IMG/VR virus record: IMGVR_UViG_3300046506_000487
Location: 1-24,288 of that record
From: a virus
Strand: one strand, 5' to 3'
DNA: 24,288 bases
Positions 1 to 23,926 of the stretch are shown here, one piece after another (position 1 is the first letter of the stretch; each line of letters opens with the position of its first letter). The position numbers were made by a program, and so were the translations under genes. Under the pieces are notes generated by a model. The model had not been told where the DNA came from. It was given only the letters and a program-made list of their open reading frames with translations, and searched no databases.

Positions 1-492
1 TCATGCGATCTTGTTCGCCGCGAGGTCCCAGCCGCCCGAGGTGTTGCCACCGGCGCCGCCCGTGACTTTCTGCTGGGTGTACTTCCACTTGATCTTCGAA
101 AATTTCAGCGCGATGCTTTCGCCCATGATGCTGCCGCCGGACACACCCGGAGCGACGTGGCCGATCAACACGTTTTCCAGCTCGATCTCAAAATACTTGA
201 TGCGCGCTCCCTGCCCGTCCGCACGCATGAATTCAAATTTGGCCTTGGGGATCGTCTTGCCGGCGCAGCAAGTCTGCGCAAGGATAGGTGAGGCCAGGTC
301 GGCCAGCTTGAAGAAGGTAACGTCTTCAAGATCGACGCGCCCGGCCGTGTGGCCGCCGCCGGTTGAGGCCGTGGCTGACCGCGGCTGCGACATGGCCCAG
401 TTGACAGACTCACACTCGATCCAGTCTTTGTGCTTGTCGTCTTGGGACTCGCCCTTGATCCCGTCGATCTGAAGGTAGACGTCGATTGCCAT
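1..492 (-). CDS. hcp: Hcp, type VI secretion tube protein
   Basis: This 163-residue protein has the standard length and layout of Hcp1-family proteins, which stack as hexameric rings to form the inner tube of the type VI secretion system and are exported to the medium or target cell. Recognisable parts are the N-terminal MAIDVYLQIDGIKGES, then KHKDWIEC, TGGGHTA, the KAKFEFMRADG strand, YFEIELENVLI and the C-terminal KWKYTQQK with a GGW tail. The ATG at 492 was chosen over an upstream ATG because a strong Shine-Dalgarno (GGAGGA) precedes it and family members start there. It carries two adjacent cysteines (Cys-Cys-Ala-Gly) in mid-protein. No other secretion gene is visible, so it is an orphan or the edge of a cluster to the left. 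It may be host DNA flanking the prophage. It is a structural analogue of the phage tail tube encoded at 14273-14659 but not a copy of it. Confidence 0.95.
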   Translation of the reverse strand: MAIDVYLQIDGIKGESQDDKHKDWIECESVNWAMSQPRSATASTGGGHTAGRVDLEDVTFFKLADLASPILAQTCCAGKTIPKAKFEFMRADGQGARIKYFEIELENVLIGHVAPGVSGGSIMGESIALKFSKIKWKYTQQKVTGGAGGNTSGGWDLAANKIA

Positions 493-498
493 GAGTTC

Positions 499-539
499 CT
501 CCGTTGCAATTAGTGGGATTCCACTGTGGCGCAACGGAG
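499..539 (-). promoter_or_regulatory. Hairpin sequestering the hcp Shine-Dalgarno
   Basis: On the minus strand CTCCGTTGC pairs perfectly with GCAACGGAG (9 bp). The second arm contains the GGAG of the hcp ribosome binding site, and the start codon follows 7 bases later. Inside is a second 5-bp stem, AGTGG/CCACT, with a four-base loop. The complementarity is seen directly. That it controls hcp translation, for example through a CsrA/RsmA-type GGA-binding protein, is inference. Confidence 0.5.
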
Positions 540-586
540 AGAAACCCGCTCTGCTGGCCGGCAAGGAGCGGTGTATTTTTTGACGG

Positions 587-627: not shown

Positions 628-1416
628 TTAGAACAGTCCGACTGGATCCTTCGACCGATCCCAGCTGTAGATGATGACCTCGGTCCGATCGACCGACTTG
701 CCGCCACCGCCCACTGTGTAGGAGATCGGCACCGTGTCCATCTCGAACGCGGCAAAGATGCGCCGGATGTCCGGGTGGTCGTTGAGGCTGACGATGGCCT
801 TGCCCTGCAGCTTGCCCATCAGCGCGGCCATTTTCTCGTATTCCTCGATCCCGAAATCGACGCCATACCCTTCCGTTTCCCAGTACGGCGGATCCAGATA
901 GAACAGGGTGTGCGGCCGGTCGTAGCGCAGCATGAGCTTGTGCCAGTCCATGTTCTCGATGTACGCGCTGTGCAGCCGCAGGTGCGCGGCCGAGAGGTTT
1001 TCTTCGATGCGCAGCAGGTTGATCGGCGGCGCCGTCGTGGCCGTACCCCAGGTCTGCCCGTCGACCTTGCCGCCGAACGCTTGCTGCTGCAGGTAGAAGA
1101 ACCGCACCGCGCGCTGGATGTCGGTCAGGGTGTCCGGCGGCGTCTCCTGGTGCCACTTGAATACCTCCCTGCTCGACAGCGCATATTTGAAGTGGCGGAC
1201 GAACTCCTCGAGGTGATTCTGGACGACGCGGTAGAGCCGGACGAGCTCACCGTTGATGTCGTTGATCACCTCGACCTCGGCGGGCGGCCGCATGAAGTAA
1301 AGCGCGGCGCCGCCGGCGAAGACCTCGACGTAGCATTTGTGTGCGGGGAACTGGGGAATCAGGTGGTCAGCAAGACGTCGCTTGCCGCCGATCCAGGGGA
1401 TGATAGGCATTGCCAT
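628..1416 (-). CDS. D12-class N6-adenine DNA methyltransferase
   Basis: This 262-residue protein fits the D12 (Dam-like) adenine methyltransferase family, which transfers a methyl group from S-adenosylmethionine to adenine N6 in DNA. Visible motifs are PWIGGKRRL at residues 7-15 (N-terminal cofactor region), FAGG at 33-36 (motif I), NDIN at 52-55 and the catalytic DPPY at 175-178. The length is typical of phage D12 enzymes. The ATG at 1416 has an AAGG seven bases upstream; an in-frame ATG lies two codons later. No restriction partner is seen, so it is an orphan methylase. Its place after the tail fibres matches that of the mom DNA-modification gene in Mu, so protection of phage DNA from host restriction is a reasonable inference. 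The target sequence cannot be told from this sequence. Confidence 0.93.
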   Translation of the reverse strand: MAMPIIPWIGGKRRLADHLIPQFPAHKCYVEVFAGGAALYFMRPPAEVEVINDINGELVRLYRVVQNHLEEFVRHFKYALSSREVFKWHQETPPDTLTDIQRAVRFFYLQQQAFGGKVDGQTWGTATTAPPINLLRIEENLSAAHLRLHSAYIENMDWHKLMLRYDRPHTLFYLDPPYWETEGYGVDFGIEEYEKMAALMGKLQGKAIVSLNDHPDIRRIFAAFEMDTVPISYTVGGGGKSVDRTEVIIYSWDRSKDPVGLF

Positions 1417-1599: not shown

Positions 1600-2496
1600 T
1601 TACGCCGTCGCTTCGCCGCCCAGCACTTCCACCAGGTCGGCGAACATCTTGGCCAGCTCGCCCGACATCAGGGCAAAATCGCTGTCGAAGCGCTCGGCGT
1701 CATTGGCGCCCGAGCCGGTCCCTTCCTTGATCACGTCGAGCGCCCTGACGCTCTTGATTACCAGCGAATCGGTCAGGACGAACGAGATGCGGCTGTTCCA
1801 GGTGAGCGCCAGACGCGTGCACTGCTTGCCGGCGGCGATGTGGCGGCCGACGTCCTCGGGATCCAAGGTGTGCTTCACGTAGCGCACAGCCGCCTTGCTC
1901 TCGCCGGTGGCGCGCAGGTCGGCGTCCTGGTCGACCGTGAAGCCTGGTGGCGCTTCGTCCGCCTCCAGCCAGCCGGTCATCACCGCGATCGGCGCACGCT
2001 TCACGCGCACGCTTTCCAGCGGCATGCGGTCGACGGCCTTGAGCAGATGCTTAATGACGTCGTCCGTCACGGCCTGGCTGGCAGCGTCGACCACCAGCCA
2101 GCCGTTGACCGGATCGATCCAGACCAGGGTGTGCGTTTCGATCGAAAACGCCCTCGGCAGCAGCTCGTCGGCCGTGCGTTCCTTCAGCTCCTTCATCGCC
2201 TTCTTCCCGGGTGGGAAGCCTTGCGACTCTTCCAGCTCTTCGGCTTTTGCCCGGGCTACCTGGTTGATAACCGACGCCGGCAGCAGCTTTGCCTCGGTGC
2301 GCAGCTGCAGCAGGAGCTGCCCGTTCACGCTGTGCACCAGCGGACCGCCGGCGCGCGGCGCGGTCCACCCCATACGCCTCAGCTCGGCGCTGGTGCACGG
2401 AGTGAATGCCTGCCCGGCTAGCTCGTTACCAAGCTGCTCCGCGGTCATGGGCCAAGGTGCTGGCAGGCGGTAAATTCGAAGATGTTTGAAGAACAT
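1600..2496 (-). CDS. rdgC: RdgC, recombination-associated DNA-binding protein
   Basis: This 298-residue protein matches RdgC in length and in conserved stretches: MFFKHLRIYRL at the N-terminus, the LHS-type loop VHSVNGQLLL, EAKLLPASVIN, LLPRAFSIETHTLVWIDP, then MTGWL and the C-terminal RISFVLTDSLVIKSVRALD. RdgC forms a ring-shaped dimer on double-stranded DNA and limits RecA function; in proteobacteria it affects recombination and replication restart. The ATG at 2496 was chosen because AGGAG lies 4-5 bases upstream; an open frame extends 57 codons further but has no family resemblance. It sits between a phage receptor-binding-type gene and a methylase, all on one strand. It is either phage cargo that modulates RecA or a host gene next to the prophage. 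The sequence alone does not decide this. Confidence 0.95.
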   Translation of the reverse strand: MFFKHLRIYRLPAPWPMTAEQLGNELAGQAFTPCTSAELRRMGWTAPRAGGPLVHSVNGQLLLQLRTEAKLLPASVINQVARAKAEELEESQGFPPGKKAMKELKERTADELLPRAFSIETHTLVWIDPVNGWLVVDAASQAVTDDVIKHLLKAVDRMPLESVRVKRAPIAVMTGWLEADEAPPGFTVDQDADLRATGESKAAVRYVKHTLDPEDVGRHIAAGKQCTRLALTWNSRISFVLTDSLVIKSVRALDVIKEGTGSGANDAERFDSDFALMSGELAKMFADLVEVLGGEATA

Positions 2497-2545
2497 GTTG
2501 CTCCTATCTCCGCAGCGTGGCGGCGTTGTCATGCAGTCGATTCGC

Positions 2546-3316
2546 TTACGCGGCCACTTCGGCCAGCATCCTTTCCAAGGCTGCCAGGTCGTCCCCTGCC
2601 AGTACCCGGTTGAAGGCGATTGCGGCAGCGTAATGGCCGTACTTGGACACATGGGCGTTGGTCGCACTTACCACAGCGCCGAAGCGAAGGCCATTCAGCA
2701 GCAGTTTTGTGGAAATGTTCGGATTGACCGCCGTAAAAGCGACAGCACCGTTGGCGCGAATCGTCACAGTTCCAGTTGCGCGATCGACGATGAAAACGAT
2801 GGGCGTCAAGTAAGCAGCCGCAAGGGGCCGCCCCAGGTATTGCCCATAGGTGCCCGAAATGTCACCCAGCGAAAACCTCAGCTTCCCGGTGTCTGCGCTT
2901 ACCGAGTTCTCGCTGCTGATGTACCAGGAACTCCCGGCGCCGAGGGTCGGGTCGCCGTAGCTACCGAATCCGCAAAAGTCGCGTACGACAACACCCACGG
3001 TGAACGAGCCGGCACTGCTGAAATCAGGGTCGATGGGGCAATGGTTGACGCCAGCGACGTTATAGACCGACTTTCCGTTGGCCGAGACTGCAAAGCTGGT
3101 CGACACATCGACGGCGCCGAACGTTGGACAGACGGCGTCGTCGACGCGGTCGAGAAACTTGTCCTTCGAGGGCGGCACGTCCCACGCTGCCATGCCCGGC
3201 CAGTAGACCAGGCCGTCGATATTGCAGACAGCGATCTCCGCCTCGGATACGTCGATCAGTGGGTTCCCCGGGACTGCTGCGGTGCCAGGAAAGGAGAGGA
3301 TTTGTCGTGCGGGCAT
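2546..3316 (-). CDS. LamG/concanavalin-like tail-associated protein
   Basis: This 256-residue protein has the composition of a beta-sandwich and ends in AFNRVLAGDDLAALERMLAEV, the closing strand and helix typical of LamG/concanavalin A-like lectin domains. A stretch near residues 105-190 (GSFTVGVVVRDF, then ISGTYGQ and VTIRANGAVAF) reads as further strands of that fold. It starts 9 bases after the tailspike stop, with AAGGA six bases before the ATG, so it is probably co-transcribed. A carbohydrate-binding or accessory tail-fibre role is inferred from fold and position. It lacks the N-terminal attachment domain shared by the two upstream fibre proteins, so it may bind the tailspike or be a decoration protein. 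The exact function is unknown. Confidence 0.65.
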   Translation of the reverse strand: MPARQILSFPGTAAVPGNPLIDVSEAEIAVCNIDGLVYWPGMAAWDVPPSKDKFLDRVDDAVCPTFGAVDVSTSFAVSANGKSVYNVAGVNHCPIDPDFSSAGSFTVGVVVRDFCGFGSYGDPTLGAGSSWYISSENSVSADTGKLRFSLGDISGTYGQYLGRPLAAAYLTPIVFIVDRATGTVTIRANGAVAFTAVNPNISTKLLLNGLRFGAVVSATNAHVSKYGHYAAAIAFNRVLAGDDLAALERMLAEVAA

Positions 3317-5595: not shown

Positions 5596-5910
5596 TTATC
5601 CTTGTTGTTCAGCGTTCGGAAGACTCGGCACGGCTTTCCCGCCGGCGAGGGATAACTGCACGACAAGGGACGCTTCAGCGGCCGTCACGAGCGAATTGCG
5701 CATAGATTCCGTTGCGGCCGCACCCTGGCGAACTTCTTTCGATGTCTCGATGAGCAGCATTGGCATCCACGCTATCGCGCATGCGTACTCGTCGACCTCC
5801 GCGCCAGTTTGAGGGTTGGTACCGCGCACTTGGGTGTACCAGCTGCACTGGAGTCCAATGCAATTCTTTTTGATGAGAGGGCAGAAGCTGCCTTGTTCCA
5901 GTCGTGCCAT
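5596..5910 (-). CDS. Small conserved cysteine-containing phage protein
   Basis: This 104-residue protein lies between the two fibre genes. Its start codon overlaps the fibre stop by one base (TAATG). The N-terminal half has a distinctive cysteine pattern, FCPLIKKNCIGLQCSW, then a fourth cysteine in YACAIAW, with conserved-looking RGTNPQTG and RQGAAATESMRN. Four spaced cysteines suggest metal or iron-sulfur binding, but this is inference. It has no signal peptide or membrane segment. I recall similar small proteins beside tail fibre genes of other phages without a known function. A fibre chaperone or a host-directed moron are both possible. I do not recognise its activity. Confidence 0.75.
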   Translation of the reverse strand: MARLEQGSFCPLIKKNCIGLQCSWYTQVRGTNPQTGAEVDEYACAIAWMPMLLIETSKEVRQGAAATESMRNSLVTAAEASLVVQLSLAGGKAVPSLPNAEQQG

Positions 5911-6785
5911 TAGTCTTTGCTCGCGATGATGACGTCGACGTACTTGACATCGAGGTTGATGGAGTGGGAGTGGGCATTACCGCCGCCAGTCGACGAGATC
6001 GTCGCACTTGGCGTGATGGTCCCGAGGCCTGAAGCGGTGCTGGCGGTGACTAGGAACCCCTGTCCGCCCGTGCTGTCGCTACCGTCAGTAGCGGTCAAGG
6101 TGTGGCTGTGCGACGGCATTTGGTCAACGCTAAGCGCCGTTGCGCCGACGCTGCCGCTGGCAAAGGCGCTCGTGAAGTCGAGGGTACCGCCCGAGCCGAC
6201 CGCGCCGCTTACCACGCGGAGGGCTTTGTTGTTCTGGTCGACCACCTTGGTCCAGCCGACCGGCGCCGTGGTCTGCTGGAACAGCATGCGCGTGCCGCTG
6301 TCGAACTTGCGCTCCTTACCGGCCAAGGCGTTCGTCATCGTGACCGCGAAATTCGGGTCATTTGCCATCGCGGTAGCCAGCTCGCTGAGGGTGTCGAGCG
6401 CCGCCGGCGACGAATTGACCAACGCGGTGATCTGCTGCGCCACCCACGGCTCAAAGGCGACATTGCCGTAGTCGACGCCGGCGATCTCGGCCTTGAGCTT
6501 GGCGCCTGGGGCCGCTCCGATCTTGACGGCCCCGGCGATCTGGCCGGCACCGCCGCCTTGGGAGACGAAGAGCGCCCTAAGCGCGGCGGGGAACTGATCA
6601 AAGTCCGCAGCGCTGAGTGCAATGCCTGCGGCCTCGATGACGCGCACCAGGCTTTCCTGGACCATGTTGAACCAGTCCGGTGTCAACTCGGTGGCGCTGG
6701 CGACACCTGGCACGGCGGCCTTGAAGCCGTCCTTGCCGGGGCCGAATAGCGCGATCGCGCGATTCGGACTGTCGATACGTTTCAT
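5910..6785 (-). CDS. Tail fibre protein (first copy)
   Basis: This 291-residue protein starts at the ATG at 6785, where the N-terminus MKRIDSPNRAIALFGPGKDG matches the start of the tailspike at 5593. The longer open frame upstream overlaps gp48 and is not used. Residues 1-70 are the shared attachment module. The middle is helical and alanine-rich. The C-terminal third has GWTKVVDQNNKALRV, then MPSHSHTLT and AHSHSINLDVKYVDVIIA, a histidine-rich pattern seen in short tail fibre tips and collar-type domains. It lies 8 bases downstream of gp48, the usual fibre position in Mu-like phages. It probably trimerises at the baseplate and binds the host surface. Two receptor-binding proteins on one attachment site are implied. 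Confidence 0.85.
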   Translation of the reverse strand: MKRIDSPNRAIALFGPGKDGFKAAVPGVASATELTPDWFNMVQESLVRVIEAAGIALSAADFDQFPAALRALFVSQGGGAGQIAGAVKIGAAPGAKLKAEIAGVDYGNVAFEPWVAQQITALVNSSPAALDTLSELATAMANDPNFAVTMTNALAGKERKFDSGTRMLFQQTTAPVGWTKVVDQNNKALRVVSGAVGSGGTLDFTSAFASGSVGATALSVDQMPSHSHTLTATDGSDSTGGQGFLVTASTASGLGTITPSATISSTGGGNAHSHSINLDVKYVDVIIASKD

Positions 6786-7367: not shown

Positions 7368-8429
7368 TCACAGCGCCAGGGCGACGGTGCCGAGCGTCGG
7401 CATCTCGACCCGGGAGGCGTCGACCACAGACACCAGGTTGGCGGCCGGGGCCGCCAGCTCGAAGTCGATCACGCCCTCGATGTCGCCGAGGATGGTTTGA
7501 ACCCGGCTGCGGCGAGCGGTGCCGCCCGGGACCATCGAGGCCGAGTAGGCGGCAAGACCTTCGTTGGCCTTCGCCAGCACGGTGTTGAAGTCGGCCTCGT
7601 CGTCGAGCACGAGCTTGCCGACGACGTCAAAGGGGAGCAGCTGGGGAGACAGCACCATGCAATCGGCCTCGACTGGCTTGCGTTCGTCGATGTAGGCGGT
7701 GACAGCGGCGCGCAGGGTCTCCGAGGGAGGCTGACCGTTCGACAGGATCGCCACATCGACGGTACCGATGCCGCGCCGCAGCGGGTAGACGAAGGCCGCC
7801 GTGACACCTGGCACCTCGCGGGCCCAGCGCGGGTAGTCGTGCTTGTTGCCGCCTGCAGGCGGTTGGCGCAGGCGGTCCAGCACCTTGCTCAGCAAGGATT
7901 CGAGCGACTCGGCGTCGACGCCGCCGCTCATCTGCAGAAGCACCACGGCCGGGTCGACGCCAGCCGGCGCAGTCTGCAGCACGCCCGGGGTGTTGTCCGG
8001 CATGTTGCCGACCGGGCCGACATTGATGGCAGACGCGCTGACGTTCGCGCTTCCGTCCGCGCCAATCACGCCGGGCGCGGTCGTCTGGAACTGCTTGCCG
8101 TCCGCCGTCTGGATCAGGGTAGCCAGCGGAATCGCCGCGCCGACCGTGCCGGTAAAGCGTGCGGTGCCAGTGGCGCCAACTGCCGGCAGGCGGGCGATGC
8201 CGCGCACATCGGCGAAGCGCTCGAGGTTTTCGGTATCTGCCGTGTCCGGGAAATACTGGTTGATGCCCCAGGCGGCGAACTGATACAGGCCGAGGATCGC
8301 GCTGGCCATTCCGCTGGCCCGGATGAAGTTGTCCGAGTCAGGGGCGACCGTGATCTGGTTGTCCTGGTTGCGCCACTCAGTCAGGATGCGCGCACGGATC
8401 TCTTCGAGCGTGGGGATAGGTAGGGACAT
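7368..8429 (-). CDS. Baseplate J-like protein, Mu gp47
   Basis: This 353-residue protein is a baseplate J-family protein, a structural wedge component of contractile tails. Supporting parts are MSLPIPTLEEIRARILTEWRNQ at the start, the GMASAILGLYQFAAWGINQYFPDTAD helix, ERFADVRGIARLPA and the GTVGAAIPLATLIQTADG segment typical of the family, then VTAAFVYPLRRGIGTVDVAIL and PVEADCMVLSPQ in the C-terminal half. The ATG at 8429 overlaps the gp46 stop (ATGA). The open frame extends 31 codons upstream inside gp46 in another frame and that part is discarded. Its place before gp48 agrees with Mu. Confidence 0.93.
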   Translation of the reverse strand: MSLPIPTLEEIRARILTEWRNQDNQITVAPDSDNFIRASGMASAILGLYQFAAWGINQYFPDTADTENLERFADVRGIARLPAVGATGTARFTGTVGAAIPLATLIQTADGKQFQTTAPGVIGADGSANVSASAINVGPVGNMPDNTPGVLQTAPAGVDPAVVLLQMSGGVDAESLESLLSKVLDRLRQPPAGGNKHDYPRWAREVPGVTAAFVYPLRRGIGTVDVAILSNGQPPSETLRAAVTAYIDERKPVEADCMVLSPQLLPFDVVGKLVLDDEADFNTVLAKANEGLAAYSASMVPGGTARRSRVQTILGDIEGVIDFELAAPAANLVSVVDASRVEMPTLGTVALAL

Positions 8430-8779
8430 CAGGCGACCTTCACGTAATGCTGGAATGTGGTTGCGGCCCGCCCTGCCTGGTAAATGGTGCCGATCAGCTC
8501 GAGGCGGCCGTCGTGCTGCCAAGTGGCGTCGACGTCGATCCGATCGGCGCGCTTGTCGTCGACCAGCGGCTGCAGGGCTTCGCGGGTGTATTGGATGGCG
8601 AGGGTTTTGTTGCGCTCAAGGTCCTTGAGGCGGCGCAGCAGGTGCAGTTTGCTGCCCAGGGTCTTGTCGGCCCAGTAGCTGCCGAGCGGCGTGACGATCC
8701 GCAGATACACCGCATTGTCCAGATCGGAAGTGCGGGTGCGGTCATAGTCGCCAGTGGCGGGGTCGATGCGAGAATCCAT
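8429..8779 (-). CDS. Baseplate protein, Mu gp46-like
   Basis: This 116-residue protein resembles the GP46 family of Mu-like phages (MDSRIDPATGDYDRTRTSD, then AVYLRIVTPLGSYWADKTLGSKLHLLRRLKD), a baseplate wedge component similar in role to gp25/gpW proteins. I chose the ATG at 8779. The upstream ATG at 8812 would add eleven residues, Ser-Ala-Arg-Ala-Arg and on, read through an alternating CG tract that belongs to a proposed promoter. The ATG at 8779 has GGAG eight bases upstream, and family members begin at this point. The stop overlaps the gp47 start by four bases (ATGA). Confidence 0.87.
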   Translation of the reverse strand: MDSRIDPATGDYDRTRTSDLDNAVYLRIVTPLGSYWADKTLGSKLHLLRRLKDLERNKTLAIQYTREALQPLVDDKRADRIDVDATWQHDGRLELIGTIYQAGRAATTFQHYVKVA

Positions 8780-8785
8780 GCCCGG

Positions 8786-8828
8786 ATTCTCCGCGCGCGC
8801 GCGCGCGGACATAACTAAAGCGCTTTAG
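8786..8828 (-). promoter_or_regulatory. Proposed Mor-type late promoter, copy C (before gp46)
   Basis: A perfect 14-bp palindrome, CTAAAGCGCTTTAG, lies at 8815-8828, right after the gp45 stop. It is followed on the minus strand by the alternating palindrome CCGCGCGCGCGCGCGCGG at 8791-8808 and by the -10-like hexamer GAGAAT at 8786-8791. The dyad and hexamer centres are 33 bp apart, the same as in copies A and B. Mor and C activators of Mu bind short dyads just upstream of a weak -35 region, so an activator-dependent promoter is a good fit. Function is inferred. Confidence 0.6.
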
Positions 8829-8830
8829 AT

Positions 8831-9406
8831 TTACTGCGGTGCGGCGGTCTTGCTGCCTGCAATCGGGTGCACGTGTCCCTTGAGGGACTTGCCGGCAGCG
8901 ACCACGTCGACGTCGGCTGTCATGGTCTGGCCGACGTCGACGTTGCCGGTGATATCGGTGGTGGCGGCGTCTATGCTGACGGCGGGCGCCTTGATGTTCA
9001 CGGCCTCGGACGCCTCGACGTTAAGCGTGGCGCACTTCATGTCGATGACGCGGCCGTTGCGCAGGATGACCGAGTTGGCCTCCCCGTCGGTCTCGTTGAA
9101 TATCGCCACTTCACCAGGCTTCAGGTCGACCACGAACAGGGAGCCGTTGCTCATGGCGACCACGACGCCGTTGGCACTGCGCCCGCCCAGCGGGATCACG
9201 ATGGCCTGCATGCCTTCGACTGGGATGCTGCGCAGCCCGGGCTGCTGGAAGACCTCGGCGTTGTTGAACACTTCGCCGGCGAGACCTTCGGCCTGCGCCA
9301 GGATCACCTGCTTGCCGCCGCCGGCGCGCTGCACGCGGCCGCGCAGCGCCTGGCGCACGCTGCCCAGGGCGCTTTGTATCATGTTCTTGATCTGCCGAGC
9401 GTCCAT
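8831..9406 (-). CDS. Baseplate spike, Mu gp45-like
   Basis: This 191-residue protein matches the gp45/gpV-type central spike of contractile phage tails. The N-terminal part (about 1-110) reads as the OB-fold spike base (MDARQIKNMIQSALGSVRQALRG at the start, then AIVIPLGGRSANGVVVAM and GEVAIFNETDG). The rest is short-strand, Val/Ala/Asp-rich sequence typical of a triple-stranded beta-helix. It ends with GHVHPIAG, where His178 and His180 form the HxH pair that binds an iron ion at the needle tip in this family. The start overlaps the P-like gene stop by one base (TGATG). The first of the late promoter-like elements by map order follows its stop codon. Confidence 0.92.
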   Translation of the reverse strand: MDARQIKNMIQSALGSVRQALRGRVQRAGGGKQVILAQAEGLAGEVFNNAEVFQQPGLRSIPVEGMQAIVIPLGGRSANGVVVAMSNGSLFVVDLKPGEVAIFNETDGEANSVILRNGRVIDMKCATLNVEASEAVNIKAPAVSIDAATTDITGNVDVGQTMTADVDVVAAGKSLKGHVHPIAGSKTAAPQ

Positions 9407-10509
9407 CAGTCATCGTCCCCATCGGCGTAAGCGCCTCTTCTCTTCCCATAGCTGGAGCGGCGTTTGGCCTTCACGAACGGCATTGGCAGGAGCCAGGTGC
9501 CGTCCGGGATCAGGTGCAGCTCGGTGCCCGCGCCGGCCGCGCGCGAGCGCGTGAAGGTGCGGCGAATGATGAAATACACGGCCGCGATGCCGTGGGGCTC
9601 GGACAACACGTTCACGCGCATGCCGGGAGCCCATGGCTTGCCAGGCCCCGCGGTCGTGGTCACGCGATGGCCCTCGACACTGGCCACCAACTGCTCGCGC
9701 TGCATCTTGCTGTCGGCCATGAGCTTGGTGGCGCGGTGGACTGCCAGCTCGGTGGACTCGCAGTTGCCGTCCACCACGGTCAGCGGGCGGTACAGGGGCA
9801 CGGTATCGTCGGTGGCGGTGCCCTTGATGTTGTGGTGGCCGACCTCGCCCTCGCCGGCGGACTGGCCGAGGACCGTGATTTGAGAATAGCTCTGGTGCAA
9901 GCTGCGGGTGCGCTGCAGCCGGAGCACGTTGTTGCCGGCGCCATCGCGGCGCAGGATCAAGTCGGCCACCGGCGGCGTCGTGTAGTCCGGACGGCCGATC
10001 ACCAGGGTGCCGTCCGCCGCCATCCATGGCCATACCTGGTTGGCCTCGCAGGCCGCCTGCAGCCACTCCCAGACGTTCTGGCCGGGCTCGGTATGGACCT
10101 TCTGGCGTGGCGCCGCGGGCTTGGCGCGGTATTCGACTTTCTTGATGCCGAGTGGTTGCACGGCCTTGCCCACGATCTGCTCGAGCGTGGCCAGCTGCAG
10201 CGACAGCATTGGCGCCGAACAGTCGAGCAGCAGGCTTGCGCGATCGCGGCCGTACAGCTCGGCGGAGACGCTGTGCTTGTCGACCGATTCGTCGATCGAA
10301 TCGATCAGGCCCGATAGCAGCTCGTCGTCGCCCAACCGGAGGCTGATCGGCGCACCTTCGAACACGAAGTCGGGCAGATTCTGTCCAGCCGCCGCCGACA
10401 CCGTCATGCTCCAGTCGTCGGCCGGGCTCAGCAGGTCGCTGTCGATACGATAGCTTTCCCACTCGTCGTGGACATGGCCACCGACCAGGAGACGAAGCGG
10501 TTCGTTCAT
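9406..10509 (-). CDS. Baseplate hub, Mu gpP/gp44-like
   Basis: This 367-residue protein matches the Mu P (gp44) baseplate hub family, which forms the trimeric hub on which the spike sits. Signs are the N-terminal LLVGGHVHDEWESYRIDSDLLSPADDWSMTV region, DFVFEGAPISLRLGDDELLSGLIDSI, LYGRDRASLLLDCSAP, PGQNVWEWLQAACEANQVWPWMAADGTLVIGRPDY in the middle and the GKPWAPGMRVNV segment near the C-terminus. The C-terminus is basic (KAKRRSSYGKRRG) and then acidic. The start overlaps the N-like gene stop by four bases (ATGA) and the stop overlaps the spike start by one base, so these are translationally coupled. Confidence 0.93.
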   Translation of the reverse strand: MNEPLRLLVGGHVHDEWESYRIDSDLLSPADDWSMTVSAAAGQNLPDFVFEGAPISLRLGDDELLSGLIDSIDESVDKHSVSAELYGRDRASLLLDCSAPMLSLQLATLEQIVGKAVQPLGIKKVEYRAKPAAPRQKVHTEPGQNVWEWLQAACEANQVWPWMAADGTLVIGRPDYTTPPVADLILRRDGAGNNVLRLQRTRSLHQSYSQITVLGQSAGEGEVGHHNIKGTATDDTVPLYRPLTVVDGNCESTELAVHRATKLMADSKMQREQLVASVEGHRVTTTAGPGKPWAPGMRVNVLSEPHGIAAVYFIIRRTFTRSRAAGAGTELHLIPDGTWLLPMPFVKAKRRSSYGKRRGAYADGDDD

Positions 10510-14717: not shown

Positions 14718-16139
14718 TTACAGCAACAGGTCGAAGCGCTCGGCCAGGATGTGCAGGCCGTTGATGACGTCCAGCGGGATCCGCTCGTTCAGCCGGCTGA
14801 CATCCTGGGAATCGCGCTCGATCACGTACTGCGGCAGGTTGTCGGTCACCTTCTCGATGATTTCCAGATCCTCGAGCTGACGCAGCAGGACGATGCCGGT
14901 GTCGCGCATGCTGGCGATCAGGCGGTCACTGATCTTGGTGCGGCTGTAGCGGCGCGCGCGGTCCTCGACGAAGGCCTTGGCCACGTACTTCAGGGTGCGG
15001 GGCGTGGTCAGGTCCAGCAGCGACACGTCGGGCACGCCGGCCGGGTTCAGCACATAGGTGGTGACGGCGCGCACGATCTGGACGCGCTCGCCCGGACCGA
15101 CGTTCAGCGGGGTCACGCCGTTGTAAAGCGCGCTTTCTTCCTCGGTACGCGAGGTGCGGTCGGCCACCAGCGGCGGCGCGATACCGGTCACGGCGACGTT
15201 ATCGAACGGCAGGGCCGGATCTTCCGTCGCCGCGATCGTGGCGGCGTAGGCTGCGGCGATCTCCATGGTGGTCGTGTTCGTATTGCGGCACCACACGTTG
15301 CTCATCCAACCGTGGTTCAGCGCGGCGGACAGGGCGATGGCCGTGGCCAGCGTTCCGTTCGATGCGGTGTAGCCCAGCGCCCAGCGCTTCTCGGCGTAGT
15401 TGCCGACGTTGTCCAGATGGGTGCGCAGCGCGGTCAGGTTCGGCGTGTCGCGGTATGGGACGACGATCTGGTCGTGACCGCCCAGGAATGCGGCGGTCAG
15501 GGCCGGCGTGATGTCGGGGTCGGTGGCGCCGGCGACAGCCGCGCCAGCCGTAAGGGTCATTCCTGGCACGGCGCCCGACGCGGTCACCTTGAAGCCGTTG
15601 GCCACGGTGCCCTTGTTCTTGGCGGTGAAGGTGATCACGCCGGCGGCGTTGGCCGCCGTGAACGGCAACTCCGGCTTGGCGGTGACGGCGGTCACGAAGG
15701 CGGCGGCCACCGAGGTCGGGGTGTCGGTCACGCCGGCGTTCACCTGCAGCACGGTGTCGTTCAGGCTGATGGCGAAGGTGCCGGGGCCGGTTGGTGCGCC
15801 GGCGACGGTCACCGGGAAGCTGGCCAGCGTGCCGGCCACGACATCAGCCAGCGCGACGATCGACAGGCTGGCGTTCGGATTCGCCAGCAGCGAGGCGCGC
15901 ACCATGCGGTGCACCTGGGAGCCAGGGCCGCAGAGCGCGGCGGCTTCGACATCGGAGAACACGTCGGTCAGCAGCAGCGGCGCCAGCGCGCCGGCGGCGG
16001 TCTTCTGGCCGATGATCAGCGTGCGCTGACGGTTGCCTGGAAGGCTGCGCACCGCCATCTTGGTGTTGAACTCAGTGTAGACGCCCGGCTTGCGGGTGCT
16101 GGACGGGATGGTCTCGAATGCGACGTTGGGGGATGCCAT
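14718..16139 (-). CDS. Contractile tail sheath, Mu gpL-like
   Basis: This 473-residue protein is the tail sheath subunit that contracts during injection. Family features are the N-terminal PSNVAFETIPSS-type start (here MASPNVAFETIPSSTRKPGVYTEF with NRQRTLIIGQK), PLLLTDVFSDVEAAALCGPGSQVHRMVRA, the variable beta-rich insert around residues 115-200, then FLGGHDQIVVPYRDT and ALGYTASNGTLATA, and the C-terminal PAGVPDVSLLDLTTPRTLKYVAKAFVEDRARRYSRTKISD. The ATG at 16139 has AAAGG six bases upstream. It lies in the order DUF2635, sheath, tube, as in Mu. Confidence 0.96.
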   Translation of the reverse strand: MASPNVAFETIPSSTRKPGVYTEFNTKMAVRSLPGNRQRTLIIGQKTAAGALAPLLLTDVFSDVEAAALCGPGSQVHRMVRASLLANPNASLSIVALADVVAGTLASFPVTVAGAPTGPGTFAISLNDTVLQVNAGVTDTPTSVAAAFVTAVTAKPELPFTAANAAGVITFTAKNKGTVANGFKVTASGAVPGMTLTAGAAVAGATDPDITPALTAAFLGGHDQIVVPYRDTPNLTALRTHLDNVGNYAEKRWALGYTASNGTLATAIALSAALNHGWMSNVWCRNTNTTTMEIAAAYAATIAATEDPALPFDNVAVTGIAPPLVADRTSRTEEESALYNGVTPLNVGPGERVQIVRAVTTYVLNPAGVPDVSLLDLTTPRTLKYVAKAFVEDRARRYSRTKISDRLIASMRDTGIVLLRQLEDLEIIEKVTDNLPQYVIERDSQDVSRLNERIPLDVINGLHILAERFDLLL

Positions 16140-16434: not shown

Positions 16435-16477
16435 ATTCTGGTCGCGCGCGCGGGGGAATCGGAGTAAAGGGCTTTAG
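16435..16477 (-). promoter_or_regulatory. Proposed Mor-type late promoter, copy B (before DUF2635/sheath)
   Basis: GTAAAGGGCTTTAG at 16464-16477 differs from the perfect copy C at two positions. It is followed by the alternating tract CGCGCGCGCG at 16443-16452 and the -10-like hexamer CAGAAT at 16435-16440, centred 33 bp from the dyad centre. It lies in a 136-base gap between gp37 and DUF2635, the only wide gap in that part of the cluster. Predicted transcription would start near 16428, leaving a leader of about 35 bases with a normal ribosome binding site. Confidence 0.55.
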
Positions 16478-16529
16478 AATTTCAGGGAGGAAAGACAGCG
16501 CGCGGCCAGCTGGCGCGCTGCAGGCGGCG

Positions 16530-17951: not shown

Positions 17952-18875
17952 TCAGAAGACGTTCTGGATCAGGAAGCCGGCGCCGGACCCTGCGATCACC
18001 GGCGTGCGCTCGTGCTTGACGCCGTAGACCCACGACTCGCGGTTGTTGTCGCGGTATGGGGTCTTGACGCTCGGCTGGCCGCGCAGGCGGTAGGTGTAAC
18101 CGTACGACGGGGCACGCTGCGAGCGGAAATTCTTCGGAACGAAAGCCAGCACGATGTCGTTGCCCCACACGTCGAGCAGGGAACCGTTCAACTGGTTCGC
18201 GTAAATCGCATTGCCTTCGACAACGGTCTCGACGCCGAAATACTTGGCCAGCTGATCGGCCGTGACCGAGTCCTTACCCGTGTACTTCAGGCGGTCGCGC
18301 ACATCCGGGTGCTTGTCGAGCTTGAAGATCGCGCCGGGCGGCAGGATCATCACGTTCGGGTACTTGCCGGTGGCAGCGCGGATCGCGGCGCGGGCTGCAG
18401 CCACGTCATCACGCGGCGTCGAGGTGGAGGTGCTCCACATGGTGGTGCCGCTCAGGGCGGCCTTGTTGCTCGCAGCGTACTGTGCGGCATTGCGCGCGGC
18501 CATGGCACGCTGGTATTCCAGCTTCAAGGCCATCGAGTCGAAGACCAGGCCGACGCTCTCCTGGGCCAGGTCGAGACCGGGCACGACGTTGGCGTCACGG
18601 CCGATCTCATCCGGCACCAGCGCTTCCAGCGCGTGGTTTTCGCAGGCGTAAGGCTTGCCCAGGTAGCCGAACTCGATGCGCTTGGTGGCGCCGCCTGGTG
18701 CACGCTGGGTGTCGATCAGCAGGAAGGATTCCTTGCCGAACTCGATCACCTGGCCGCCGGCCGCGTCGACGTCGACCTCGGGAAACAGCAGGCTCCCGAC
18801 CATTTCGTTGTTGCTGTAGCCACGGATGAAGGTGGTCAAAATCGGATCGATGATCCGGGCCTGCTGATTATTCAT
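17952..18875 (-). CDS. Major capsid protein, Mu gpT-like
   Basis: This 307-residue protein lies two genes after the protease, as in Mu-like phages, and has the length of the major head protein family. Signs are MNNQQARIIDPILTTFIRGYSNNEMVGSLLFPEVDV, FLLIDTQRAPGGATKRIEFGYLGKPYACENHALEALVPDE and YTYRLRGQPSVKTPYRDNNRESWVYGVKHERTPVI near the end, typical of the HK97-fold capsid group in these phages. It forms the icosahedral shell. AGGAGA lies six bases before the ATG. No N-terminal delta domain is visible, consistent with a separate scaffold in the protease gene. Confidence 0.93.
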   Translation of the reverse strand: MNNQQARIIDPILTTFIRGYSNNEMVGSLLFPEVDVDAAGGQVIEFGKESFLLIDTQRAPGGATKRIEFGYLGKPYACENHALEALVPDEIGRDANVVPGLDLAQESVGLVFDSMALKLEYQRAMAARNAAQYAASNKAALSGTTMWSTSTSTPRDDVAAARAAIRAATGKYPNVMILPPGAIFKLDKHPDVRDRLKYTGKDSVTADQLAKYFGVETVVEGNAIYANQLNGSLLDVWGNDIVLAFVPKNFRSQRAPSYGYTYRLRGQPSVKTPYRDNNRESWVYGVKHERTPVIAGSGAGFLIQNVF

Positions 18876-19310: not shown

Positions 19311-20450
19311 CTACGACACGGCCTTGACCGCGTCGATGAATCCAGTACCCGGATGGTCCTTCTGGTAGGCCTGGGCCTTCTGCATTACCTCGAGCCCGCC
19401 GGGATCGACGTCGTAGCCCATCGGAGCGGCGAAGTCCGCCGTGCCCGTCGCGCCGGCGCCGCTGCCGGCCGCGGCGCTGATGCGGCCGAACTCGACTTGC
19501 TTGGGCTGCTTCTCCAGAAATTCCTTGAAGAGGGCCGCGCCGGTCTTGCCGTGGTTCGGGTCGCCCTCGGCAAAGTCGGCCACCTGGTTGATGCCGTCGA
19601 GCTGCACCAGGATCTGCACGACCGTGTCCTGTTCGGCCGGCAGCAGCTGGCCGCGTTCGCACAGCGCTGCCGCGAATTCCGCGTGGCCAGCCTTGCTCAG
19701 CTTCGCTTCCATTTCGGCGATGCGAGCCTCGCGGCTGGCCAGATCGGTTTCGCGCTGGGCAAGCTCTGCAGCCGCTTGTGCGTTTTGTTGCGTGTTCAAT
19801 TCGACCTCCGTCGGTTGTGGATTGGGTTGGGAAAAGGCGGGTTGGGTCGCGGTGCTCTCGGCTTCGATCTGCGTGAGGTCATCGAGCTGGTAGTCGGGGA
19901 TGATGTTGTTGGCGGTTTCCATGCCGTGGTTCTCGACGAACCAGTCGCGCAGCCGGCGCAACATCCGCACGATCACCCGGTCCTCGTAGGCGAAGTCCGC
20001 GACGCCGGCTTCGGCCTCGGAGAACTCGACCGCCTTGAGGCCCTTGACGGCCGGCGCGGCGCCGCCCAGGAAACCGATGTGCCGCAGGTAGTGCTTGCCC
20101 GGGGTCGGGTTGCCCGGCGCGTCCGGCAGGTAGATCGAAGCCGACACCCTGGTGTAATGCTTGTTGTTGACGGCCTCGGCGAACTCGGGGACGACCTCGG
20201 CCGTTTCGGCGCATAGGACGCCCGCAGCGTTCACGAAGAGCCGCTCGGCGCGGCCGAAGCGCGGTGAGGTCAGCTTCGGGTGCCCGACGACCAGGGGCGC
20301 GTCGGCGAAGTCGGGACGGTAAGTGTCGGCCAGCTCTTGAACTTGCGCCGCCGTGAACGAGTACTTGGTGCCGTTCATGGCAGTAAAGCTGCCGGGCCGG
20401 AAGATTTCGATCGGCTTGATGCCGTTGCTGCCTTGGGTTTGGGTGTCCAT
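19311..20450 (-). CDS. Head maturation protease/scaffold, Mu gpI-like
   Basis: This 379-residue protein matches the Mu I protease family. The N-terminal half has IKPIEIFRPGSFTAMNG, then PLVVGHPKLTSPRFGRAERL (conserved GHP motif at 56-58), YTRVSASIYLPDAPG with SAS at 103-105 and LRHIGFLGGAAPAVKGL at 122-138, the usual conserved block. The second half (about 190-320) is charged and helical, ending with a glycine-rich tail, as expected of the linked scaffold part that Mu also makes separately as Z. No ribosome binding site precedes the internal ATG at 19922, so a separate scaffold product is not supported here. The start codon at 20450 has no clear Shine-Dalgarno, and a promoter-like element ends 7 bases upstream. 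Confidence 0.92.
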   Translation of the reverse strand: MDTQTQGSNGIKPIEIFRPGSFTAMNGTKYSFTAAQVQELADTYRPDFADAPLVVGHPKLTSPRFGRAERLFVNAAGVLCAETAEVVPEFAEAVNNKHYTRVSASIYLPDAPGNPTPGKHYLRHIGFLGGAAPAVKGLKAVEFSEAEAGVADFAYEDRVIVRMLRRLRDWFVENHGMETANNIIPDYQLDDLTQIEAESTATQPAFSQPNPQPTEVELNTQQNAQAAAELAQRETDLASREARIAEMEAKLSKAGHAEFAAALCERGQLLPAEQDTVVQILVQLDGINQVADFAEGDPNHGKTGAALFKEFLEKQPKQVEFGRISAAAGSGAGATGTADFAAPMGYDVDPGGLEVMQKAQAYQKDHPGTGFIDAVKAVS

Positions 20451-20456
20451 CTGGGC

Positions 20457-20499
20457 AGTATCCCGGTCGCGCGAGGATGCCGTAATTAAAACGTTTTAG
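20457..20499 (-). promoter_or_regulatory. Proposed Mor-type late promoter, copy A (before protease)
   Basis: TTAAAACGTTTTAG at 20486-20499 keeps the dyad of copies B and C; its two inner changes are compensatory. A shorter CGCGCG tract lies at 20468-20473 and the -10-like hexamer GATACT at 20457-20462, again centred 33 bp from the dyad centre. In Mu the PI promoter also lies directly upstream of the protease gene. The predicted start point coincides with the first base of the protease ATG. Confidence 0.55.
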
Positions 20500-20585
20500 T
20501 TTTTGCCGCAGGGAATCAAACAGGTAGAACGCGAGGGCGTGATGAATCGGCTGGGTAGCAAAGGCTTCCGATTGGCCGGATTCGA

Positions 20586-20614
20586 TTTATAAACGCTGCT
20601 GGCGGCGTTTTCAG
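20586..20614 (-). promoter_or_regulatory. Possible sigma-70-type promoter between mor and protease
   Basis: On the minus strand CTGAAA (4 of 6 to TTGACA) is followed by a 17-base spacer and TATAAA (5 of 6 to TATAAT). The spacer contains an inverted repeat, AAACGC/GCGTTT. It would yield a leader of about 130 bases crossing the proposed late promoter A. It is a weak call because one such match is expected by chance in this much sequence. Confidence 0.3.
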
Positions 20615-20646
20615 GCGTCCTCGCGCAGATGGGGCCGGTATAGGCG

Positions 20647-20671
20647 AAAAAAAACGCCCTGTGGGCGTTTT
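20647..20671 (-). terminator. Intrinsic terminator after mor
   Basis: ACGCCC and GGGCGT form a perfect stem with a three-base loop, extended by A-T pairs, and eight T residues follow on the minus strand. It overlaps the mor stop codon. This is a strong Rho-independent terminator ending the early/middle operon. The stem is nearly symmetric, so it could also stop plus-strand transcripts. Confidence 0.85.
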
Positions 20672-21051
20672 TACTCAGTCCCGGTTGGGAACAGGTTTTC
20701 CTGGCGCGCTCGCCGGTCGACCTTGGCTGCGTGGGTGACGATTTGCCGAATCCTCATCTCGGTCAGGTCGTACTTGCGCGCCAGCTCGGCATAGTTGTCG
20801 CCCTTAAAGTCGGTCCAGATCTCGCGATCGCGCTGGCTCAGGTCGTAGCCCGTGCCACGCGGGATGTAGGTGGCGACGCCGCCGATGTTCTTGCGCACGC
20901 TCTCGGCCACCGACATCGCTACCTCCGCCGCGATCGGATGCGCGAGTCGGAGCTTCGGGTGCTCCATCAGCTGCTCGTGCACCGTACGGGCGATATCGGC
21001 GAGCACCTCCGGATAGGATTCGTCCAGGAACAGACTGGGCTTGTCAGCCAT
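20671..21051 (-). CDS. mor: Mor-family late/middle transcription activator
   Basis: This 126-residue protein matches the Mor/C activator family: N-terminal dimerisation helices, then the beta turn IPRGTGYD at 63-70 and the C-terminal helix-turn-helix around 79-107 (IWTDFKGDNYAEL, then RKYDLTEMRIRQIV). In Mu, Mor activates the middle promoter and its paralogue C activates late promoters by binding short dyads upstream of RNA polymerase. The ATG at 21051 was chosen; the frame opens upstream but family members begin near here. The start overlaps the GemA stop by eight bases. No C paralogue is visible, so Mor may itself drive the late genes. The three dyad elements listed here are its candidate sites. 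Confidence 0.93.
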   Translation of the reverse strand: MADKPSLFLDESYPEVLADIARTVHEQLMEHPKLRLAHPIAAEVAMSVAESVRKNIGGVATYIPRGTGYDLSQRDREIWTDFKGDNYAELARKYDLTEMRIRQIVTHAAKVDRRARQENLFPTGTE

Positions 21052-21529
21052 GATCAGCCTCCGATGCTGTTGTTGCTGCGGCCGGATCGGCCGGTGCACT
21101 CGCGACCCGGTCCCGCCATTTCTTCAATGTCTCGATAATAACCGTCACCTGCGCATTACTGCAAAAGGCGAAGTCTGCCGTGCTGGTGATCCGCTTGATA
21201 TAGACGCGGATCGCTGCCGCCGTGTTCGTCTGCACCGCGCCGGCGCGATGCAGCTCGGACCACAGCGCCTGGATCTTGCGGTACTGCGGGTTGTCCTCGT
21301 TCTTGCCTGGTTTCGACGCCGCGGTGCTCTTGACCTTGAAGCCCTTCGTCTTCATGTGCTCGAGCACCTTCTTTCGGCCCTGGGCGTCGAGGTCTTTCGA
21401 TGATTCGACGCCGGCCACTTCCTTCAGCATGGCGCGGTAGGTTTCATCATCGAGCTGCAGCTCGCGCCGGCCGACGTGGATCAGGACGATTTCGCGAGCA
21501 CGGGCTTGCTGGGCGGGTGTCGCTTTCAT
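21044..21529 (-). CDS. gemA: GemA/gp16-like regulator (DUF1018)
   Basis: This 161-residue protein fits the Mu gp16/GemA (DUF1018) family: VGRRELQLDDETYRAMLKEVAGVESSKDLDAQGRKKVLEHMKTKGF, then QYRKIQALWSELHRAGAV and AIRVYIKRITSTADF with an ending QVTVIIETLKKWRD. In Mu, GemA modulates host gene expression and DNA topology. The ATG overlaps the preceding gene's stop by four bases (ATGA), and the 3' end overlaps mor. Its place directly before mor agrees with other Mu-like elements. Confidence 0.92.
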   Translation of the reverse strand: MKATPAQQARAREIVLIHVGRRELQLDDETYRAMLKEVAGVESSKDLDAQGRKKVLEHMKTKGFKVKSTAASKPGKNEDNPQYRKIQALWSELHRAGAVQTNTAAAIRVYIKRITSTADFAFCSNAQVTVIIETLKKWRDRVASAPADPAAATTASEADHG

Positions 21530-23266: not shown

Positions 23267-23926
23267 TCAGGCGCCCGTCATGTCCATGCTGATCGGCAGG
23301 TACTTGTCCGACTCGCCGATGCGCTCGTACACCCGGATATAGCTCTTGCTGCTCGAGACCGACAGCGATTCGCCGATCGCGCGCATGGCGCTCTGCCAGT
23401 CCTTATCCTCGATCTTCATGCGGCGCAGGGCGAGCACGCGGCCGGTGTTGATGTTGCCGGCTTTATCCACCTGGAAGGCGTCGTTGATCAGCAGCTTGAT
23501 CTCCGGGGTGGAGCCTTCGCTCCAGCGCTGCAGGCAGCTGTCGATCAGGGCCTTGGCGGCCTGCAGGCGCTCGTCGAACACCAGCGTCTCGGAGATCGCG
23601 CGGATGACCTTGTAGCGACCGTCGAACGACGTCAGGGTGACGTTGCCTTTGGTGCCGCCGATCTTCGCGCCGTAGCCTTCGGCGCTGAGCGAGACGAAGG
23701 CGGCGATGTCGCTGAACGTCTGCGCGCGGAATGCGGCGACCTGCTCGGACATCGCCTTTGCCTTGCCCACGATCTCCTGTACCAGGGAGTCGCGTGCCAT
23801 GTCGATTGCGGGAATCTTCGCTTCCGGCCACAGGCGGCCCTGGGCGTCCATCTTGAAGCCTTCCGGAATCTGGAGCGCGGCCGGTTGGGCTTTCGTCATG
23901 GTGCCGCTTTCATTTGACTGGTTCAT
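23267..23926 (-). CDS. DUF3164 domain protein
   Basis: This 219-residue protein has the DUF3164 pattern: IPEGFKMDAQGRLWPEAKI, a long helical part with MARDSLVQEIVGKA, then GTKGNVTLTSFDGRYKVIRAI, FDERLQAAKALIDSCLQRW and the C-terminal part ending DKYLPISMDM. This family is a regular early gene of Mu-like phages, with unknown function. The ATG at 23926 was preferred over one nine codons later because AGAGG lies upstream of it only. A 66-base A/T-rich gap precedes it and may hold an internal promoter, but no clear one is seen. Confidence 0.92.
   Translation of the reverse strand: MNQSNESGTMTKAQPAALQIPEGFKMDAQGRLWPEAKIPAIDMARDSLVQEIVGKAKAMSEQVAAFRAQTFSDIAAFVSLSAEGYGAKIGGTKGNVTLTSFDGRYKVIRAISETLVFDERLQAAKALIDSCLQRWSEGSTPEIKLLINDAFQVDKAGNINTGRVLALRRMKIEDKDWQSAMRAIGESLSVSSSKSYIRVYERIGESDKYLPISMDMTGA

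Follow-up and report, generated by a model that had tools for sequence, protein, structure and literature searches.

In Escherichia phage Mu (NC_000929), both late blocks lie behind mor on one strand, and separate lys and I late promoters are under the control of one activator. Two activators of the Mor/C family, Mor and C, are encoded by this phage, and its late promoters are driven by C, not by Mor. In the Mu promoter Pm, the place of the -35 element is taken by a dyad centred at -43.5, to which a Mor dimer binds (PMC4390567). Another organization is found in the Burkholderia phage KS10 (NC_011216), which forms plaques and has a contractile tail (PMC2628397). There, the F, portal, TerL, TerS and lysis genes on one strand are followed by the repressor and then by the divergent series Ner, MuA, MuB, early genes, GemA, Mor, protease, capsid and tail. 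The divided capsid module was unique to the knowledge of the KS10 authors, and the reason for the arrangement was left unexplained (PMC2628397).

The window analysed here spans an entire IMG/VR record (24,288 bp), which is classified as linear. With a probability of about 0.9, it corresponds to the early and head-tail arm of a Mu-like myophage having the KS10-type layout, in which the late genes are split around the Ner|c core and the gap between mor and the protease gene is made up of a terminator and a predicted late promoter, P_I.

The Mor–protease junction and its relatives

The genes of GemA, Mor and the protease are all on the minus strand within 2 kb (Table 1). The preliminary description of this DNA had reported that mor is followed by a terminator, 220 geneless bases and then the protease, with the later head and tail genes in standard order. 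Pfam and PHROGs matches, the hairpin fold and the ORF list, which has no whole ORF of at least 50 aa in the 220 bp, bear out this arrangement, and family profile matches place the capsid, sheath, tube, tape measure and baseplate genes downstream in the Mu order. GemA, Mor, an I-type protease, a T-type capsid and Mu-type tail genes together mark a Mu-like transposable phage. Mor is directly followed by the protease on the same strand with no late genes between them, as in the KS10 type; the early genes are not divergent from the protease and tail genes, as they would be in the BcepMu type. The window thus contains the leftward arm, from the early genes through GemA, Mor and the protease to head and tail. 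The 220-bp gap looks like the mor terminator plus the predicted P_I, not like a deletion scar.

Table 1. Features of the window around the Mor–protease junction and at the other predicted late promoters
Feature	Position	Strand	Basis or remark
mor–protease intergenic region (terminator and predicted P_I)	20451..20670	-	ORF-free; elements conserved in six relatives
Intrinsic terminator at mor stop, hairpin and U-run	20647..20672	-	within -18 kcal/mol fold, z -3.2 vs shuffles
GCGTTTATAAA element, clade-conserved	20586..20596	-	sequence comparison
Predicted P_I operator palindrome, core TAAAACGTTTTA at 20487-20498	20481..20504	-	shared element, weight matrix
-10-like hexamer GATACT, 30 nt downstream of palindrome centre	20457..20462	-	fixed spacing in clade
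Head maturation protease (Mu I-like)	19311..20450	-	phrog_976 E 1.3e-102
Mor	20671..21099	-	Pfam PF08765 E 5.5e-27; phrog_532 E 1.8e-28
GemA	21044..21529	-	PF06252 and PHROGs
DUF3164 early protein	23267..23926	-	Pfam/PHROGs match
Major head protein (Mu T-like)	17952..18875	-	phrog_1005
Tail sheath, query that found relatives	14718..16139	-	family match
Predicted second late promoter operator, upstream of gp38-like and sheath genes	16459..16482	-	weight matrix 16.2 bits (weaker)
Predicted third late promoter operator, upstream of GP46-like gene 8429-8812 (PF07409)	8810..8833	-	weight matrix 28.9 bits

Single-sequence scans with the protease gave almost no matches, whereas the sheath query and a protease alignment succeeded. 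The former retrieved four virus records (sheath 68-77% identical) and the latter an Oxalobacteraceae MAG and a Herbaspirillum frisingense MAG; a survey of 393 genomes of Oxalobacteraceae added G206 and G126. G206 is a complete 3.78-Mb chromosome that apparently carries the same element as record G003, and the copies in G126 and G013 sit in longer host contigs. In the six closest relatives, the protease is 57-66% identical to that of the window, which is nested inside their clade in the protease tree (support 100). The host group would be the Oxalobacteraceae or near relatives. Among the INPHARED matches listed for the protease as well as for the portal, which did not include KS10, no close relative with the split layout was found, the two genes being on the same strand a few kb apart.

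The four virus records are collinear with the window from the tail to the early genes. Mor adjoins the protease in each of them, and about 20 kb separate the sheath from Portal_Mu, which all four have on the other strand. More generally, the Mor–protease junction occurs in 6/6 relatives, with a gap of about 205-268 bp in five and of about 650 bp in one. Past the point where the window stops, the relatives continue with MuB and MuA (present in all six) and Ner. Then comes a right arm on the other strand, with a c-like repressor, phage lysozyme, holin-like and small genes, TerS (Phage_Mu_Gp27), TerL, portal, an F-like minor head protein and a G-like neck protein. In every one of the six, this lysis-terminase-portal-F-G block lies on the opposite strand beyond Ner|c, and 15-16 kb separate the protease from the portal. 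A search for terminal repeats in G206, G126 and G013 gave none that was convincing, with a script that recovered those of KS10.

The ends of the elements carry additional genes. At the left edge of the window (1-564, minus strand), a T6SS Hcp-like protein is encoded (PF05638, E 1.7e-41). This gene looks like phage cargo and not like host flank because a copy 66% identical lies within the tail region of G004 (5861-6352, minus strand). Beside the tail fibre genes, a full-length RdgC homologue (1600-2667, minus strand; PF04381, E 4.7e-107) is encoded, of which the four relatives compared showed no copy. A D12-class adenine methylase is located at the tail end in the window (628-1416, minus strand), in G001 (1789-2550, minus strand) and in G126 (local 8657-9433, minus strand). 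In G002 (27519-28307, plus strand) and G004 (36510-37298, plus strand), it is found instead at the other end, past the packaging block. By its distribution, it appears to be a cargo gene moving between the two ends.

A predicted late-promoter element shared by the two arms

In the clade, the mor–protease gap holds, besides GCGTTTATAAA, a palindrome (core TAAAACGYTTTA) immediately before the protease gene, with a -10-like hexamer 30 nt downstream. This palindrome recurs ahead of the endolysin gene of the relocated block and ahead of the GP46-like tail gene, in both cases with a GC-rich stretch after it and a -10-like hexamer at the same spacing; in several members of the clade, it also precedes the gp38-like and sheath genes. 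P_I, P_lys and the tail promoters of the clade are alike in carrying one palindromic element whose distance to a -10-like hexamer is fixed. Three sites in the window are found with a weight matrix (Table 1), of which only the P_I site at 20487 was used in building it. The operator before the gp38-like and sheath genes has the same position in G126, G013, G002 and G004, and the one before the GP46-like gene in G206, G126, G013, G001 and G004. In three host genomes, the exact core is confined to the prophage, at three, four and two places; in the complete chromosome of G206, its three copies are all inside the prophage.

The region upstream of the protease was compared with that upstream of the lysis genes in a shared-dyad test using 100 shuffles. 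Elements of the window clade beat all or all but one of the shuffles. Most split elements of other lineages beat all 100, with a dyad sequence that differs per lineage (G699/G612, G527a/G630, G527b); the result is weaker in G611 (3/100) and G092 (15/100). In KS10 and G107, unlike in the window clade, the test found no shared dyad. In G693, a shared 18-mer was rejected as an operator since it falls within a more extended segment of identity, whose position (-152) is odd. The promoter analysis agrees with the earlier suggestion that the piece absent from the junction corresponds to one late transcription unit, in Mu from Plys to PI.

If the hexamer is numbered -12 to -7, the palindrome would be centred at about -42.5, as expected of a Mor-type promoter, with a dyad near -43.5 in place of the -35 element and a -10 hexamer. 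Mor is the only protein of the Mor/C family found in the clade, compared with two in Mu. Because the operator position resembles the Mor site of Mu and because no second member of the family was detected in the clade, it is proposed that one activator, Mor, probably switches on both blocks. In such a model, Mor would bind the palindrome and activate every late unit. The leftward unit would comprise the early genes, GemA, Mor, P_I, protease, head and tail, and the rightward unit, beyond the right end of the window, would comprise c, P_lys, endolysin and holin, TerS, TerL, portal, F and G. With its own promoter on each late unit, place and orientation would matter little.

Two observations count against late promoters driven by Mor: those of Mu depend on C, and the clade palindrome is without the G/C-rich six-base spacer described for the Mor site of Mu. 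The layout could therefore be as described and the palindrome, plain in its core, be the target of another regulator, for instance a phage repressor or a host LacI-type protein. However, no copy of the element lies in the rest of the host genomes, the spacing between it and the -10-like hexamer suits Mor-type activation, and Mor is the only member of its family detected. Another regulator is thus unlikely, although it is an alternative to be taken seriously, and control of both blocks by Mor is preferred.

In the clade, only about 6-8 nt separate the ends of the -10-like hexamers of P_I (20448-20462) and of the GP46 promoter (8797-8833) from the predicted start codons. Late mRNAs made from such promoters would have no leader or almost none. 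As for GCGTTTATAAA, it lies about 100-150 bp upstream of the protease across the clade and is nearly absent elsewhere in these genomes.

Placement of the packaging block

Portal_Mu has no match anywhere in the record, and the preliminary description had considered the whole packaging block to be missing, by loss or by relocation. The absence holds for the record. It does not extend to the phage, because the record is a fragment that ends before MuB, MuA and Ner, the relatives continuing past that point. Loss of the block would make the element a defective prophage, or a satellite borrowing terminase, portal and lysis functions from a helper, and would account for a record without portal. Against this, the record is cut before the place of the block in the relatives, the block is present in every close relative long enough to contain it, and the conserved genes of the window match their families over their full length with no evident frameshift or stop. 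Neither loss nor helper dependence finds support, and we regard loss as very improbable. Relatives sharing the order with packaging genes elsewhere, the observation that the preliminary description had itself set against loss, are what the junction comparison revealed. The KS10-type layout is already described and compatible with a functional phage, since plaque-forming KS10 has it.

That the split layout is an artefact of misassembly or of two neighbouring Mu-like prophages is hardly credible: several relatives are metagenome-derived, but each element has a single Ner|c core, which led to rejection of the neighbouring prophages, and a single MuA, and the order is shared by a complete chromosome, several draft genomes, independent virus records and cultured KS10.

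The reading retained is that of a relocated block. Relocation is shown for the clade and is very probable for this phage, in line with the earlier idea that the module could be carried at the far end of the early region. From the relatives, the packaging and lysis genes very probably lie just beyond the right end of the record, reversed, on the far side of the control region. The complete phage would measure roughly 38-40 kb, of which the window would cover about 60%. In a Mu-like contig, a 'missing terminase' can thus mean a cut record, not a defect.

With protease, portal and GemA genes located in additional Burkholderiales genomes as well, the comparison covered 38 elements. Two blocks, P (lysis-Ter-portal-F-G) and T (protease-head-tail), are arranged around the divergent Ner|c core, and all four placements occur. 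P then T stand behind mor in the Mu type and behind c in the BcepMu type. T is behind mor and P behind c in the KS10 type, and P is behind mor and T behind c in a mirror-image type (G092 C26, G611 C161, G693 C17; L125-L126, L147-L151, L153), of which no description was found in the limited selection of literature searched. The portal tree requires 8 layout changes and the protease tree 10, for a minimum of 3, counts that are rough as the trees are quick and the sample uneven. For the KS10 layout, at least four changes are forced by well-supported branches of the portal tree. On these trees, it appears to have arisen several times, as a recurrent layout and one of four. Module exchange by recombination may account for part of the changes. 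We are inclined to consider P and T as movable modules that can stand behind mor or c in all four combinations, with repeated switching, a lineage-specific shared operator letting one Mor-type activator keep them in step.

Comparison with known systems

With Mu, the window clade shares gene families and the order inside each block, and separate lys and I promoters under one activator would be a further common feature; the two differ in the placement of the packaging block. In a second group of prophages (G427, G487, G480, G087, G101, G093), as in the window clade, the packaging block is divergent from the early genes and behind c; there, the protease-head-tail genes follow the packaging block, whereas in the window clade they follow mor. 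We take these prophages to be of the BcepMu type, a name used partly from general knowledge and partly after PMC2628397; BcepMu itself was absent from the compared set. The Leptospira TG1 transposable prophages have two divergent arms, with TerS-TerL-portal apart from the other structural genes, as in the window clade, but they have no Mor/C genes and their hosts are unrelated (PMC8705779).

KS10 has the same layout as the window clade, with a Mor–protease gap of 157 bp. Its sequences are distant (27% for the protease), and the G-like neck gene is kept in the protease-tail block in KS10 and its sister G107, whereas in the window clade it follows F within the packaging block. The divided capsid module, unexplained in KS10, is here recurrent and comes with a testable proposal for coordination, the same operator on each late unit. 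A four-way pattern and a testable mechanism are thereby added to the known KS10 layout.
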